This document shows positions 1,789 to 55,027 of a DNA stretch of 60,780 nucleotides, in pieces. The notes under the pieces are model-generated. The model saw only the letters and a list, made by a program, of their open reading frames with translations. It had not been told where the DNA came from and did no database searches. The position numbers and the translations under genes are program-made. This DNA comes from Gemmatimonadaceae bacterium (GTDB lineage: Bacteria; Gemmatimonadota; Gemmatimonadetes; Gemmatimonadales; Gemmatimonadaceae), in contig JADZDM010000011.1 in the NCBI GenBank assembly GCA_020851035.1, positions 1 to 60,780 on the forward strand. Reading direction: 5' to 3'. Position 1 is the stretch's first letter. Every line of letters starts with the position of its first letter.

Positions 1789-2796
1789 ATGATGCTGTCT
1801 CCGTCAGTACCCCCCGTGGCTCCAGAGCCGACCGACGTTCTCGTGACCGGGAACGTGCCGGCCGCGCTGTTGCCCGTGCTCACCGCGTGGGCCGACGCGC
1901 GGCACCTGCCGCTGACGGTGCTGCCGGGTGCCGCGGTTCGCGAGACGGCGCGGCGGGCCGATGGCGTACCCGCCATGATCATCGTCGGCGCCGAGGGCGA
2001 TGACGCCGGGGCCGAGACACTCGTCGGTGAGTTGAAGCGTGACGGCCGGCTGCAGGCAGTGCCGGCCGTGATGGTGATCACTGCGGCCGGTGGCGGTCTG
2101 GCCGCCCGGTGGCTGGACGCGGGGGCTGACGAGGTGATCGCGTCGGGAGTGGACGGCAGCGAGATGCGGGCGCGGCTCGACGCGGCCCTCCGGCGCTCGC
2201 GCCGGGATGTCCAGGTGAATCCCTCCACGCGCCTGGCCGGGGCGGATGCCCTGGCCTGTGCGATCGCGGAGCGGATTGACCAGCGCGTGCTGTTTGCAGC
2301 ATGTTACGCCGATCTCGACCATTTCAAGGAGTTCAATGACCGGTACGGCTATGCCATGGGGGATGACGTCATCCGCACCGTGGCGCGGCTGCTGGTCGAC
2401 GTCGTCGACGAGGTGTCTGGCGCGGCGGGCTTCGTCGGGCACATTGGGGGCGATGACTTCCTGTTCCTGGTTCCCCTGGCGGATGTCGCGCCGGCCTGTG
2501 ATCGGATCGTGCGGGGCGCGGACGAGATCCTCCCGCTCCGCTACTCTGCACATGACAGGCAAGCCGGCTACTTTTTCGGCAAGGATCGTCGGGGACGGCT
2601 GGACCGCGTGCCGCTGATGACCCTGTCGGTTGGTGTGGTCACGAACGAGCGTCGCCACTTTTCCTGCGCGGTGCAGGTCAGTGAGCTCGCGACGGAAATG
2701 AAGACGTATGCCAAGACATTGCCCGGTTCGGTCTGGGCAATGGACCGCCGCTCGGACAGCGAGCCGGTCACCCTACCCGAGGAGAAGCTCCCGTGA
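1789..2796 (+). CDS. Degenerate GGDEF-domain protein with receiver-like N-terminus
   Basis: The 335-residue protein has an N-terminal half shaped like a response-regulator receiver (ending in LDAGADEVIASG...MRARLDAALRRS) and a C-terminal GGDEF domain. The usual substrate region is intact (YADLDHFKEFNDRYGYAMGDD), but the signature reads GGDDF. No RxxD inhibitory site precedes it. It may be a cyclic-di-GMP synthase or a GTP-binding, non-cyclising sensor. The receiver half shows no obvious phospho-acceptor Asp. Start is one of two adjacent ATGs (1789 or 1792). The stop overlaps the next gene (GTGA). Confidence 0.8.
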   Translation: MMLSPSVPPVAPEPTDVLVTGNVPAALLPVLTAWADARHLPLTVLPGAAVRETARRADGVPAMIIVGAEGDDAGAETLVGELKRDGRLQAVPAVMVITAAGGGLAARWLDAGADEVIASGVDGSEMRARLDAALRRSRRDVQVNPSTRLAGADALACAIAERIDQRVLFAACYADLDHFKEFNDRYGYAMGDDVIRTVARLLVDVVDEVSGAAGFVGHIGGDDFLFLVPLADVAPACDRIVRGADEILPLRYSAHDRQAGYFFGKDRRGRLDRVPLMTLSVGVVTNERRHFSCAVQVSELATEMKTYAKTLPGSVWAMDRRSDSEPVTLPEEKLP

Positions 2797-3851
2797 ACGT
2801 GACGTGTCAGGACTGTCGGTCTGTCTTCCGCGTGGACCCGGCCAAGGTGCCACCGAACGGCGTCCGGGCGCGGTGCAGCGTCTGCGGAGCGATCATCCGG
2901 ATCTCTGTCGGCGTCACGACGCCGCTGACGAATCCGTCGCTCACACCACGCGTGACGACGCCGGTGCGCTCGCAGCCGGTTGCGCCGACGCCCGCCGGCT
3001 TGCCGGGCATCGGGCGGCCGACGCCGATGGCGCAGCCTCCGGTGCCTGCGCCGGTGAGCATCCCGGTGCCACGCTTCCCGACGCCGCTCGCGACGCCTGC
3101 CCTGGTCGTCCCGCCGGCGCCGATGCCCGTGCGCGAGCCGACACCCGAGCCGCTGCCGTCGATTGCGATGGAGACGCCGGCGGGGCTGCCGTCCATCGAC
3201 ACCACGGTCGAGGACGTGTCGCGGGCGTTGCCGCCGCTCGACCAGACCTTCGGCGAACCCACGCCCGAGACGTCGCTGCCGGTGGTGCCGCCGGCTCCGG
3301 TGATGGAGCCCGCACCGGTCCCCGTGCGGCCGATGAATCCGACGCCGCTCACGCCGCTGCCGTCGATTCCCGCGCCGCTCGAGTCGCTGCGGCCGCTGGC
3401 GCCGGAACCGGCACCGCTGCCGATGATTGCGGCTGAGCCCGTGTACGCCGCGCCGACCCCGGTTCAGGCGCCGCGGCCGCTGGTGCCGCCGCCACCGCCG
3501 TCGCCGGGCCAGCTCATCACGTCGGCACCGGCCGCCGCGGCCGCGCCGTCGCCGATGCTCACGCCGTCGGGTGATGCCACGAAGCGCGTCATCAACCCGT
3601 TCCTGCGGAGCGACCCGCTCACGCGGGCCAAGCGCCTGGCGCGTGCACTGGTCTCGGACATGGTCGCGTACCAGCCGGCCAAGCGTGCGGATGGCCTGGC
3701 CAACGGCACGCTGAAGCAGCTCTTCCGCGACGAGATCCGGAAGAGCTACGACGAGTATGTGGAGCAGGTGGGGCGCGACGTCGCCGAGTCGACCGCGTTC
3801 TTCCAGGACGCGCTGAACGAGGTCCTGGCGGAGGGGCAGCGCGTCTTCTGA
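2793..3851 (+). CDS. Zinc-ribbon (MJ0042-type) protein with long Pro-rich linker
   Basis: The 352-residue protein starts with a zinc finger of the MJ0042 type (CQDC...CSVC within the first ~33 residues). About 210 residues rich in Pro, Ala, Thr and Val follow, clearly disordered. A folded helical C-terminal ~95 residues follows (NPFLRSDPLTRAKRLARALVSDM onward). No enzyme motif is visible. Such proteins occur in myxobacteria and allied lineages, without an assigned function that I know. GTG start at 2793 overlaps the GGDEF gene by 4 bases, so the two may work together. It is the last gene before a terminator. Confidence 0.75.
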   Translation: MNVTCQDCRSVFRVDPAKVPPNGVRARCSVCGAIIRISVGVTTPLTNPSLTPRVTTPVRSQPVAPTPAGLPGIGRPTPMAQPPVPAPVSIPVPRFPTPLATPALVVPPAPMPVREPTPEPLPSIAMETPAGLPSIDTTVEDVSRALPPLDQTFGEPTPETSLPVVPPAPVMEPAPVPVRPMNPTPLTPLPSIPAPLESLRPLAPEPAPLPMIAAEPVYAAPTPVQAPRPLVPPPPPSPGQLITSAPAAAAAPSPMLTPSGDATKRVINPFLRSDPLTRAKRLARALVSDMVAYQPAKRADGLANGTLKQLFRDEIRKSYDEYVEQVGRDVAESTAFFQDALNEVLAEGQRVF

Positions 3852-33062: not shown

Positions 33063-34364
33063 ATGGTGCGTGTGGCGGCCGTCGAGGACGGGCAGCTCGG
33101 GGCGTCTCTGGGAATCGTGCGCGGCACCGAGCTGCGCGCGGTCAACGGGCGCCCGATCGAGGATTTCCTCGACTGGGAGTTCCTGACCGCCGACGAGGAG
33201 TTCACGGTGGACGTGCGCCAGCCTGACGGCAGCGAGCACTCGTGGCGCGTCGTGCGGCCGGAAGGGGCGTCGCTCGGGCTCGAGCTCGAGCCGCCGACGG
33301 TGCGCCGCTGCGCCAACCGCTGCGAGTTCTGCTTCATCGAGGGGCTGCCCAAGGGACTGCGCAAGCCGCTCTACATCCGCGACGACGACTACCGCCTCTC
33401 GTTCGCGTACGGGAACTTCGCGACGCTGTCGAACGTGAAGGAGCGCGACATCGCCCGCATCATCGAGTACCGGCTCTCGCCGCTGTACGTCTCGGTGCAT
33501 GCGACGCCATGGGAGGCGCGGAAGGTGCTGCTCAACAACCCGCGGGTCCCCGACATCCTCGGTCAGCTGACCGCCCTGGCGGCCGGCGGCATCCAGTTCC
33601 ACGGGCAGATGGTGATCGTGCCCGGGCTGACCGACGGCGCGGTGCTGGAGCAGTCCCTCACCGACCTCTGGGACATGCACGAGGCGGTGATCTCGGTGGC
33701 GCTGGTGCCGGTGGGGCTGACGCAGTTCTCGCACCTCTACACCGGACGCAGCATGGACCAGGACGCGGCGCGCGCGCTGCTCGACATCGTCGAGCGCTGG
33801 GCGGCCCGCGGCCTCCGCGAACGTGGTGATCGCTGGGTCTACGGCTCAGACGAGCTCTACCTGCTGTCCGGGGCGCCGCTGCCCGACGCGGAGCACTACG
33901 GCGACTTTCCGCAGATCGAGAACGGGGTCGGTGCGGTCGCCTCGCTGCGCGAGCGCGTGGCCGCCGGGCTCTCGCGCCTGCCGCGCCTGGAGGGCCGGCG
34001 CATCGCGGTCGTGACCGGCACCAGCATGGCGCCGCTCCTGCCACCGCTGCTCGAGCGCCTGGCCGCCGCCACCGGCGCCAGCTTCGAGCTGCTGCCCATC
34101 GACAACGCCCTGTTCGGCCCGACGACCACCACCGCCGGGCTGCTCACCAGCGACGATTTCCGTCGCGCGCTGGCCGGTCGCACCGGCTTCGATCTCGCGC
34201 TGATCCCGGCCGAGAGCATCAACGAGAACGGCGTCTTCCTCGATGACACGAGCTTCGTGTCGCTGCGCGAGGAGTTCCCGTTCCCGGTGTATCCATCGTA
34301 CGATTTCATCGACGTGCTGGAGGCGGAACCAGCCGTCGGTTCGTCATTCAGGAGTGCTGCGTGA
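33063..34364 (+). CDS. PDZ/radical-SAM-like DUF512 protein
   Basis: The 433-residue protein starts with a PDZ-like domain (VEDGQLGASLGIVRGTELRAVNGRPI). A cysteine cluster follows, CANRCEFCF (CX3CX2C), which should bind an Fe-S cluster as in radical SAM enzymes. A DUF512 C-terminal domain completes it. ATG 33063 is preferred over 32985 because GGAGGAG lies at 33053-33059 and a promoter-like pair lies between them. The function is unknown; the family commonly sits beside der, as here. It overlaps der by 4 bases (GTGA). Confidence 0.85.
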   Translation: MVRVAAVEDGQLGASLGIVRGTELRAVNGRPIEDFLDWEFLTADEEFTVDVRQPDGSEHSWRVVRPEGASLGLELEPPTVRRCANRCEFCFIEGLPKGLRKPLYIRDDDYRLSFAYGNFATLSNVKERDIARIIEYRLSPLYVSVHATPWEARKVLLNNPRVPDILGQLTALAAGGIQFHGQMVIVPGLTDGAVLEQSLTDLWDMHEAVISVALVPVGLTQFSHLYTGRSMDQDAARALLDIVERWAARGLRERGDRWVYGSDELYLLSGAPLPDAEHYGDFPQIENGVGAVASLRERVAAGLSRLPRLEGRRIAVVTGTSMAPLLPPLLERLAAATGASFELLPIDNALFGPTTTTAGLLTSDDFRRALAGRTGFDLALIPAESINENGVFLDDTSFVSLREEFPFPVYPSYDFIDVLEAEPAVGSSFRSAA

Positions 34365-51966: not shown

Positions 51967-52009
51967 AGCCACCGGCTGCGCGCACCGCAGTCCGGTGGCT
52001 ACTGTTTTT
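51967..52009. terminator. Strong terminator between convergent genes
   Basis: AGCCACCGG pairs with CCGGTGGCT, with an inner CTGCG/CGCAG stem and a 5-nt loop. ACTGTTTTT follows on the plus strand. It ends the YfgM-like gene; the stop codon of the minus-strand secreted protein lies in its right arm, so it probably serves both. Confidence 0.88.
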
Positions 52010-52907
52010 CCGTCATGCCGAGCTTCACCGGCTGCTCCAGGAATGCGCGTGCGCCAGCCACCTCGAACCGGGTGGACGGAATGGCGGTGCCGTCGGCGAT
52101 GAGCAGCAGCTTCTGGACGCTCGCCTCCGCAGCACCAAGCGTCGCCGGAAGCCAGTTGCCGGCCAGCGCCCGGTTTCCTGATCGGGTCTCGAGCACCACG
52201 ATGTGCTGTCCCCGGCCAGCGGGGACGGCCGGCTGCCGGGCATAGAGGCAGAGGTCAAGGGCGTCCGGATCAGCCGGGACCGAAAGGCCGGCGCCGGCAA
52301 GGCTCCGGGCCATGAAGGCAGACATCCAGATGCACGGCGTGCCCGAGGCGTCGTCGCGCGGAAGGCCGGTCGGATCATACGGACGGCGGGGCCGGCTGCA
52401 TTGGGTTGAGCGGACCGCCTCCGTCCGGAGCGTGATGTCAGGCGGCTCGGGGTTGGTGAGGTCGACCAGGTTGCCGATCAGCGTCGTGCCGCCATAGATC
52501 CGGGACGTGCAGCCGAGCTCGATCGCCACGCTGTAGCGCCGGATCTGGCGCGGGGTGCAGCCGGCGGTCGGGTCTGGCCAGATGGTGGCGGTGGTGGTGT
52601 AGATGGCGTAGTTCGGGCCGTCGAAGAGCTCCTCGATGCGGATGATGTCGACCGCGCCGAGCTCGGCGTCGCTCGGCAGTGGTGGGGCGACCTCAGGCAG
52701 GTGCTTGACGACCTGGCACGCCGAGACCGCCATGAGGATGTTCTCGCGGAAGGCCGGCGCATGGGCGTGGCCGGCGCGGACGGTGCGGATGCGGGCTGGC
52801 GGCTGTGCCTGGGTCTGGGCCTGAGCCTGCACGGTGAGGGTGCCGGCGGTGGCCGTCAGGGCGATGGCGAGGCGGGACAGGTGGATACGAAAGGCGGCGG
52901 TGGTCAC
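51999..52907 (-). CDS. Secreted protein with six cysteines, function unknown
   Basis: The 302-residue protein has a signal peptide (HLSRLAIALTATAGTLTVQA) followed by a Gln/Ala repeat (QAQAQTQAQ). The mature part has six Cys, so up to three disulfides, and no motif I recognise. GTG 52907 is favoured because it begins just before the signal peptide; an ATG at 52970 would add 21 residues. It lies 205 bases from the dif-like site. Confidence 0.6.
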   Translation of the reverse strand: MTTAAFRIHLSRLAIALTATAGTLTVQAQAQTQAQPPARIRTVRAGHAHAPAFRENILMAVSACQVVKHLPEVAPPLPSDAELGAVDIIRIEELFDGPNYAIYTTTATIWPDPTAGCTPRQIRRYSVAIELGCTSRIYGGTTLIGNLVDLTNPEPPDITLRTEAVRSTQCSRPRRPYDPTGLPRDDASGTPCIWMSAFMARSLAGAGLSVPADPDALDLCLYARQPAVPAGRGQHIVVLETRSGNRALAGNWLPATLGAAEASVQKLLLIADGTAIPSTRFEVAGARAFLEQPVKLGMTEKQ

Positions 52908-53408
52908 GTCGTTCCGGTGCGGCAAAGGCTGCGTCGTGACATGTCGGTCGTGCGACGGTCGAGGCGTCACGGGCGCGGGTGTTGGGCTCCTGCGACGGAC
53001 GCGTCGAGTGTCGGGATGTTAAGCGCATCGCGGTCATGGATTTGTGGCGAGCTCTTCGGACATTCTGACCGGCCTTCTTCTGTCGCTTGGGGGCCGCGCG
53101 GCGATTCGTTTTACTTCTTATAAGAAGTATTATGTAAACTACACAGCGTGGAAAAGTGTGGAGAACTGCCTGTTTCGGGCTCCCGCTGTGGAAAGCCGGC
53201 AAGGTTGCTCACAAAATCGCCACCACACCGCCAGACAGTTCCGCCGTCTACCCCTGCCACTCTGGCGTCGCACTCGCGCCACTCCCGGCACAGTTTTCCG
53301 CCAAGCGGATCCCTCGGAATTGACGCGCCAGGCCGTGACGCCGGAGTGCCAGAATCGGCCCGCACGACCGCGCGAAACGTGGTCAGTTCCCGGGCCGGAA
53401 ATCGCTGC
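52908..53408. other. Gene-poor region containing the dif-like site
   Basis: No supported gene occurs in this 501-base stretch. The part around 53100-53165 is AT-rich, unlike the rest of the window. It contains the dif-like site and three TGTGGA-type 9-mers (CGTGGAAAA at 53147, TGTGGAGAA at 53157, TGTGGAAAG at 53187). Short open frames across it are not convincing. Confidence 0.65.
53113..53140. other. dif: dif-like XerC/XerD recombination site
   Basis: The site reads as an 11-base arm ACTTCTTATAA, a 6-base centre GAAGTA and an 11-base arm TTATGTAAACT. The right (XerD-type) arm equals the Bacillus subtilis dif arm as I recall it and matches the E. coli arm TTATGTTAAAT at 9 of 11 positions. 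The left arm matches the B. subtilis ACTTCCTAGAA at 9 of 11. Chromosome dimers are resolved at dif in the terminus. The site lies in a gene-free AT-rich spot, with genes on both sides mainly pointing at it. Confidence 0.85.
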
Positions 53409-54275
53409 TCAGCGGTGCGCGCGCAGCACGCCCTCGAACACCAGCCGACCCTCGCCGGCGAGCTCGCTCCACGCCCACTCCGGCGCCTCCGGAAACCGCA
53501 CCGACAGCGTGCGGCCGCTGGCCGTTTCCAGCCGCACCGGACCGCCGGAATCCGCCTCGCCCCATGCCACGAGACACGCCGCCGTCGCGACGGATCCGGT
53601 CCCACAGGCCAGCGTCTCAGCCTCGACGCCGCGCTCGTAGGTCCGGATGGCCCACGCCGCCCCTGCGCCGGCGTCTGCGCCCTGCCCGGCACGGCGGCTC
53701 ACGAAGTTCACGTTCGCGCCGGCCGGCTGGCGTGACGGCACCTGCCGCAACGCTCGTCCGCGCCCGAACACGTCGACCGCCGCCACGTCGTGCACCCGCA
53801 CCACCAGGTGCGGCACACCCACGACGGCGTAGCCCAGCCGCAACTCACCGGTCTCGAGCGCCTCGGCGGCATCGGTCTCGAGCGCCTGGACGGCGGCCAG
53901 CCGCACGGCCGCACCGCCTGCGGCGTCGATCGAGGCGTCGATGAGTCCGGCGTCTGACCTGAACCGGAATCGCTCCTCCCGACCCGCAAGGCCAAGCAGG
54001 ACGGCACTTTGCGCCGCGCAGAGTGAGGCGTTTCCGCAGAGCGATGCCCGGGAGCCGTCAGCGTTGTAGTACCGGATCGAGAACCGGGCATCGGGATCGT
54101 CGCCGATGAAGACGACGCCATCGGCACCCACACCAAGGTGAGGCGCGCACAGCGCTGCGATCTCAGCCGTTGATTCGAGGGCGTCCTGCCCCGGCGCCGT
54201 GCCACGGGAGTCCAGGAACACGAAGTCGTTCCCCGACCCGGACATCTTCCAGAACCGACGCCCGGCACCCGTCAT
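53409..54275 (-). CDS. dapF: Diaminopimelate epimerase
   Basis: DapF converts LL- to meso-diaminopimelate for lysine and peptidoglycan. The 288-residue protein has FWKMSGSGNDFVFLD, the first catalytic Cys in SLCGNASLC (variant of CGNG) and the second in ACGTGSVATAA. ATG 54275 gives the usual N-terminus; the longer frame upstream lies over the glycosyltransferase. The start shares one base with the upstream stop. It is the last gene of the minus-strand operon, nearest to dif. Confidence 0.92.
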   Translation of the reverse strand: MTGAGRRFWKMSGSGNDFVFLDSRGTAPGQDALESTAEIAALCAPHLGVGADGVVFIGDDPDARFSIRYYNADGSRASLCGNASLCAAQSAVLLGLAGREERFRFRSDAGLIDASIDAAGGAAVRLAAVQALETDAAEALETGELRLGYAVVGVPHLVVRVHDVAAVDVFGRGRALRQVPSRQPAGANVNFVSRRAGQGADAGAGAAWAIRTYERGVEAETLACGTGSVATAACLVAWGEADSGGPVRLETASGRTLSVRFPEAPEWAWSELAGEGRLVFEGVLRAHR

Positions 54276-55027
54276 CAGACCCGCCCGGTGATCGACCACC
54301 ACCGCAGCCGCCAGACCATCCAGATCGCCTCCCGCACGATCCGCTTCGACATCTTGCTCTCCCCCTCGGTCCGGTCGGTGAAGACGATCGGGATCTCCTC
54401 GATCCGGAAGCCCTTCTTCCACGCCCGGAAGCTCACCTCGATCTGGAAGGCGTAGCCGTTCGAGCGCACGTCGTCGAGGTCGATCGCCTCGAGCACCTCG
54501 CGCCGGAAGCACTTGAAGCCGCCGGTGGCGTCGAAGAGCTGCAGGCCGGTGACCATGCGGGCGTAGATGTTGGCCGAGTAGCTCAGGATCAGGCGCGCCA
54601 TCGGCCAGTTGACGACCGTCACCTTGCCGTTGCGGTAGCGCGAGCCGAGCACGAGGTCGGCATCCTGGATCGCCGTCAGGAACTGCGGCAGGTGCGCCGG
54701 GTCGTGGGAGAAATCGGCGTCCATCTCGAAGACGTACGCGAAATCCCGCGCCAGCGCCCACTTGAAGCCGGCCAGGTACGCGGTGCCCAGCCCCATCTTC
54801 TTCGGCCGGTGCAGCGCGTGCACGCGGTCATTGACCGCCGCGATCGCATCGACGATCGCCCCGGTGCCGTCGGGCGAGCCGTCGTCCACGATCAGCACCG
54901 AGATCCGCGGGTCCTGGGCCAGGGCCGACTCGATGATCTTCGCGACGTTCTCACGCTCGTTGTACGTCGGGACGATGACGAGGGCGCGCTGCCCTGCTCC
55001 GCCGCCGGTGGCGTGCGGCGCGGTCAC
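54275..55027 (-). CDS. Polyprenol monophosphomannose synthase-like glycosyltransferase
   Basis: The 250-residue GT2 enzyme resembles bacterial dolichol/polyprenol-phosphate mannosyltransferases: VIVPTYNERENV, LIVDDGSPDGTG, FEMDADFSHDP and GSRYRNG. No C-terminal membrane segment is visible. It would make a polyprenol-phosphate sugar for later transfer. GTG 55027 overlaps the YfhO-like gene by 4 bases. Confidence 0.87.
   Translation of the reverse strand: MTAPHATGGGAGQRALVIVPTYNERENVAKIIESALAQDPRISVLIVDDGSPDGTGAIVDAIAAVNDRVHALHRPKKMGLGTAYLAGFKWALARDFAYVFEMDADFSHDPAHLPQFLTAIQDADLVLGSRYRNGKVTVVNWPMARLILSYSANIYARMVTGLQLFDATGGFKCFRREVLEAIDLDDVRSNGYAFQIEVSFRAWKKGFRIEEIPIVFTDRTEGESKMSKRIVREAIWMVWRLRWWSITGRV

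Follow-up and report, generated by a model that had tools for sequence, protein, structure and literature searches.

A DnaA-box-like doublet lies at a fixed distance from the XerD arm of dif in a Gemmatimonadaceae bacterium and much of its class

The dif locus and its surroundings

The stretch of DNA analyzed here (60,780 nucleotides, hereafter the window) is one complete contig of the 34-contig draft genome of a Gemmatimonadaceae bacterium. When its sequence was re-read, positions 53113–53140 were found to be ACTTCTTATAA-GAAGTA-TTATGTAAACT, which is the 11-6-11 layout of known dif sites (Table 1); both the coordinates and the letters given in the initial annotation, which had been made from the sequence alone, proved exact. 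The 28-mer matched only once in the 4.97-Mb, 34-contig genome when up to three mismatches were permitted (reversed control: 0), and no better dif match was found elsewhere in it at this threshold. The site is intergenic; on the right, dapF ends at 53409 (− strand), and on the left lies an unnamed ORF (51999–52970, − strand). As had been described, the surrounding patch is gene-free and AT-rich, its AT content of 61% over 70 bp ranking within the top 13 of 60,710 such segments. The genes on both sides had been said to mainly face the site. This is true of the right side, where every Pfam-supported gene is on the − strand, but only in part of the left side, where most genes up to ~47 kb are on the + strand, the − strand nevertheless holding three of the nearest four.

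Table 1. Features of the dif locus and their positions in the window.
Feature	Position	Strand	Remarks
dif, 28-bp XerCD recombination site	53113..53140	+	Single in genome; core conserved in phylum
XerC-binding arm ACTTCTTATAA	53113..53123	+	Assigned from relatives; one base off the common ACTTCGTATAA
Perfect 16-bp palindrome ACTTCTTATAAGAAGT	53113..53128	.	Spans XerC arm plus five bases of the center; confined to own genus
6-bp central region GAAGTA	53124..53129	+	Identical in two same-genus genomes; variable elsewhere
XerD-binding arm TTATGTAAACT	53130..53140	+	Near-invariant in family; TTATGTTAAGT in sister families
DnaA-box-like element 1, TTTTCCACG	53147..53155	−	GTGGA start at offset 7–8 in 19/38 family dif loci
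Doublet GTGGAAAAGTGTGGAGAA	53148..53165	+	Sole exact GTGGANAANNGTGGANAA in genome
DnaA-box-like element 2, TTCTCCACA	53157..53165	−	Best-conserved copy; TGTGGANAA at offset 16 or 17
Third, weaker copy TGTGGAAAG	53187..53195	−	Present in both same-genus relatives too
dapF (diaminopimelate epimerase)	53409..54284	−	TIGR00652, 159.9 bits over cut-off; start approximate
Family-2 glycosyltransferase, beyond dapF	54275..55027	−	PF00535

In most of the phylum, dif adjoins dapF and the family-2 glycosyltransferase gene (53409–55027 in the window; dif loci L002–L212): among the ~73 dif loci tested, the former was present at 54 and the latter at 58. In sister families, the end of dapF lies within tens of bases of dif.

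The first 16 bases of the site do form a perfect palindrome, as had been pointed out, but the emphasis put on it was misplaced. It results from a G-to-T difference in the XerC arm together with the center GAAGTA, and among the dif sites read it was confined to the bacterium's own genus. By itself it is unremarkable, because the window contains four perfect 16-base palindromes (at 33277, 41796, 53113, and 60482). A role for it, considered as a candidate explanation, is thus unsupported.

XerC and XerD bind the arms of dif, FtsK at the closing septum activates them, and recombination between sister dif sites resolves chromosome dimers. In the search for xerC and xerD that had been proposed along with the annotation, the XerD gene of this genome scored 352 bits over the cut-off. 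A XerC-like gene is encoded whose best match was to TIGR02224; a truncated piece of it scored 260 bits, which is below the cut-off. An FtsK-gamma domain is encoded as well (92 bits). The xerC-like gene (G000:C10 near 161191, L043) comes after a trmFO-like frame, an arrangement familiar from Bacillota.

The position of dif relative to the replication terminus was read from near-complete relatives with long contigs, GC skew being measured on sampled stretches. In each of these seven relatives, skew was lower to the right of dif than to its left, clearly in three (G023, G074, and G005) and weakly, though in the same direction, in the remaining four. In G023, which consists of a single contig with dnaA at base 125, skew was predominantly positive ahead of dif and predominantly negative past it, and genes pointed at dif in 16 of 17 cases within the left 20 kb and in 16 of 18 within the right 20 kb. 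In another relative (G017), the distance from dif to dnaA amounts to 48% of the contig.

Conservation of dif in Gemmatimonadota

The genome had been suspected to be of Gemmatimonadota type, and this was borne out by a contig of the same genus (JACMLX010000193.1, Gemmatimonadaceae bacterium ES-bin-51), which contains the identical 28 bases. With the arms fixed and three mismatches permitted, 25 of 60 genomes matched. The core CKTATAANNNNNNTTATGTNAA was present without mismatch, and nearly always as one copy, in 162 of 298 Gemmatimonadota genomes (reversed control: 0), most of the genomes compared being drafts and related genomes or loci not being independent of each other. Genomes negative for the pattern need not be devoid of dif, because variants outside it, for example CCGATAA in genus g24, later turned up through the flank. 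An additional element on the XerC side (TGTCGC/GCGCCA) appeared suggestive in 26 loci, but was not upheld in 93.

The right arm had been recognized as a Bacillus-type arm, and it does match; 14 Bacillota contigs contain both arms of the window site together without a single difference, though around other centers. The weight placed on this likeness was again misplaced, TTATGTAAACT being the usual XerD arm of Gemmatimonadaceae and ACTTCTTATAA being one base off the common ACTTCGTATAA. Acquisition of the arms by transfer from Bacillota was rejected, as same-family sites are only one base off while centers and flanks of the Bacillota sites differ. Lineage-level drift accounts for both the Bacillus-type arms and the palindrome. 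A Firmicutes dif profile is known to fit several phyla, and dif in Gemmatimonadetes was predicted already in 2011 (Kono et al; PMC3025954); the dif site of the window itself is therefore ordinary.

Dif-like sites are common on mobile elements, which would allow the site to be read as a Xer site brought in by an integrated phage or plasmid rather than as chromosomal dif. Each genome has one site, however, the dapF-glycosyltransferase surroundings are conserved, the skew of relatives switches at it, and viral contigs contained no match to dif plus box. This conservation refutes a phage or plasmid origin, the probability of which is negligible. Uniqueness in the genome, presence of the core in more than half of the phylum's genomes searched, and the encoded Xer and FtsK-gamma genes all support the original assignment: positions 53113–53140 are the chromosomal dif site of this Gemmatimonadaceae bacterium.

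A DnaA-box-like doublet on the XerD side

Aligning the site with those of related genomes, as had also been suggested, not only demonstrated its conservation but revealed a second conserved feature in the flank. Seven base pairs past the XerD arm, and thus beyond the coordinates annotated initially, lies the doublet GTGGAAAA-GT-GTGGAGAA (53148–53165). It consists of two head-to-tail TGTGGANAA-like elements (equal to TTNTCCACA, a DnaA box) spaced 10 bp apart. Within 40 bp 3′ of the XerD arm, TGTGGANAA was present at 55 of 111 dif loci, compared with a mean of 0.09 and a maximum of 3 for 200 permuted 9-mers. Its offset from the XerD arm was 16 or 17 in 53 of the 57 occurrences at these 111 loci. 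Of the 40 loci of families f2 and f3, 38 have GTGGA beginning at offset 17, most positions around it carrying little information; the element is present in families f4 and f6, too, and many dif loci retain one box only. Across much of the class, dif has a conserved DnaA-box-like pair at a fixed distance from the XerD arm. That the doublet is tied to dapF rather than to dif was rejected, as its distance to dapF varies while its spacing to dif is fixed.

The flank comparison covered Gemmatimonadota, Bacillota, and E. coli. On the XerD side, the element was absent from most of family f5 and from the single f7 and f11 genomes, and it was found neither at the 14 Bacillota dif sites nor at E. coli dif. 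Given these absences, XerCD recombination does not generally require it. At several f5 loci and genera (L134–L148), TTNTCCACA was present on the XerC side instead, likewise reading towards dif.

A one-sided, oriented doublet beside dif at the skew switch, which in a few f5 genomes sits on the opposite side and still reads towards dif, is reminiscent of a polar, Ter-like replication-fork barrier that holds forks at dif with the help of DnaA or another protein. Such a barrier would, however, not require a constant base distance to dif, and one site per terminus was found rather than oppositely oriented sets, which makes this explanation improbable.

To search independently of the dif position, 148 genomes of the family were probed with the doublet GTGGANAANNGTGGANAA. 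It occurred at 38 places (reversed control: 0), 22 of which lie 6–7 bp after the end of dif (7 bp, or 6 bp in one case); eight of these 22 were at known dif coordinates and 14 were read out. The blind probe also recovered dif variants that fall outside the dif pattern. The genome of the window has a single doublet, the one at dif. Sixteen of the 38 places, which include some beside parB and recA, are not at dif, and the protein that would bind the doublet should therefore act elsewhere as well.

Regarding these other places, the doublet is located directly beside parB in several genera (L185–L188, L191, and L193; near 2284–3030), mostly ~15–35 kb from dnaN. In genus g23 (L189, L190, and L192), it is located between recA and a YraN-like/ftsK neighborhood.

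Relation of the doublet to DnaA

The 9-mer of the doublet matches the DnaA box of the clade, as judged from where it accumulates: 46 kb around dnaA contained 17 copies of TTNTCCACA, compared with five in 400 kb sampled from the G023 chromosome, a 29-fold enrichment, and permuted 9-mers averaged 0.44 at the dnaA loci. The DnaA protein of the genome contains the C-terminal DNA-binding domain. The frequent location of other doublets beside parB, close to the origin, also speaks for a link to DnaA. As the same 9-mers cluster at dnaA, DnaA is the likeliest binder, and the doublet is probably bound by it; some other protein recognizing TTNTCCACA could take its place.

The same counts bear on the possibility that the motif is a KOPS-like sequence orienting FtsK, with which its reading towards dif from either side would agree. 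Five occurrences in the 400 kb sampled are far too rare for this, and all five run in the strand direction opposite to that of the dif copy. Without the frequent, strand-skewed distribution of such sequences, this interpretation was rejected and is considered highly improbable.

Proposed function

Taken together, the locus is read here as dif with an accessory site that is phased to the XerD arm and probably bound by DnaA, an interpretation that we consider fairly probable, with DnaA binding and a regulatory role both inferred. In its general part, the mechanism would be the established one, with XerC and XerD on the two arms and FtsK-activated recombination of sister dif sites resolving chromosome dimers. 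In addition, a protein on the doublet would act stereospecifically with the Xer-dif complex; a bound protein acting in this manner is suggested because the spacing is fixed while the neighboring bases diverge. It might touch XerD or sterically gate it, in the way known for the accessory proteins of cer and psi (PMC5357621). With DnaA as the accessory factor, dimer resolution, or other roles of XerD at the terminus, would perhaps be coupled to the state of replication. The control may be activation or restraint, both of which fit the sequence.

The boxes could also have no effect on Xer recombination, dif being plain and the doublet a separate site in the terminus that titrates or regulates DnaA in the manner of datA or DARS. 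E. coli is well known to have clusters of DnaA boxes outside oriC (PMC4585315), and the doublets by parB and recA/ftsK would be in line with such a function. A titration site, however, needs no phasing, whereas TGTGGANAA keeps an offset of 16 or 17 relative to the XerD arm (53/57) across several families with diverged flanks; this speaks against the alternative, which we regard as unlikely. A broader version of the accessory-site reading can be put forward only tentatively and is rather doubtful: that most of the Gemmatimonadota families sampled have a composite dif, at which DnaA adjacent to XerD would license or block dimer resolution, or other tasks of XerD at the terminus, and thereby directly couple replication initiation to terminus processing.

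Chromosomal dif is usually viewed as a bare 28-bp site under the control of FtsK. The site described here resembles the chromosomal dif/XerCD systems of E. coli and B. subtilis (PMC3025954) in its 28 bp, the 11-6-11 layout, its occurrence once per chromosome, its location near the GC-skew switch as read from relatives, and the encoded XerC, XerD, and FtsK. Compared with dif of E. coli and of the Bacillota examined, it has in addition a doublet of DnaA-box-like elements in phase with the XerD arm. The plasmid sites cer (ColE1) and psi (pSC101) likewise combine a Xer core with an adjoining site for accessory proteins, and the fixed phase of such an arrangement was also found here; they rely on ArgR/PepA or ArcA/PepA, and their accessory sequences are long, ~180 bp at cer (PMC5357621). 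In contrast, the present site is chromosomal, and its DnaA-type motif lies within ~25 bp of the XerD arm. With datA and DARS of E. coli (PMC4585315), it shares a DnaA-box-like cluster away from oriC, but the doublet is fixed to dif at base-pair spacing, and there was no sign of DnaA nucleotide switching. No relevant account of DnaA boxes adjoining dif was found in the open-access literature. Dif had already been predicted for the phylum, and the phased DnaA-box-like doublet is the unexpected part.

If the accessory-site reading is true, some bacteria would control dif through an accessory protein, which might even be the initiator of replication, and initiation and termination of the chromosome cycle would be physically linked. 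In combination, doublet and dif also serve to mark the terminus precisely in draft genomes of the poorly studied Gemmatimonadota.

A further protein related to DnaA was observed. It comprises 639 amino acids (L194:1287–3206, − strand; G000:C7) and has two tandem DnaA-type ATPase domains without the DNA-binding domain of DnaA; twin DnaA matches in one frame were seen in several relatives, too.
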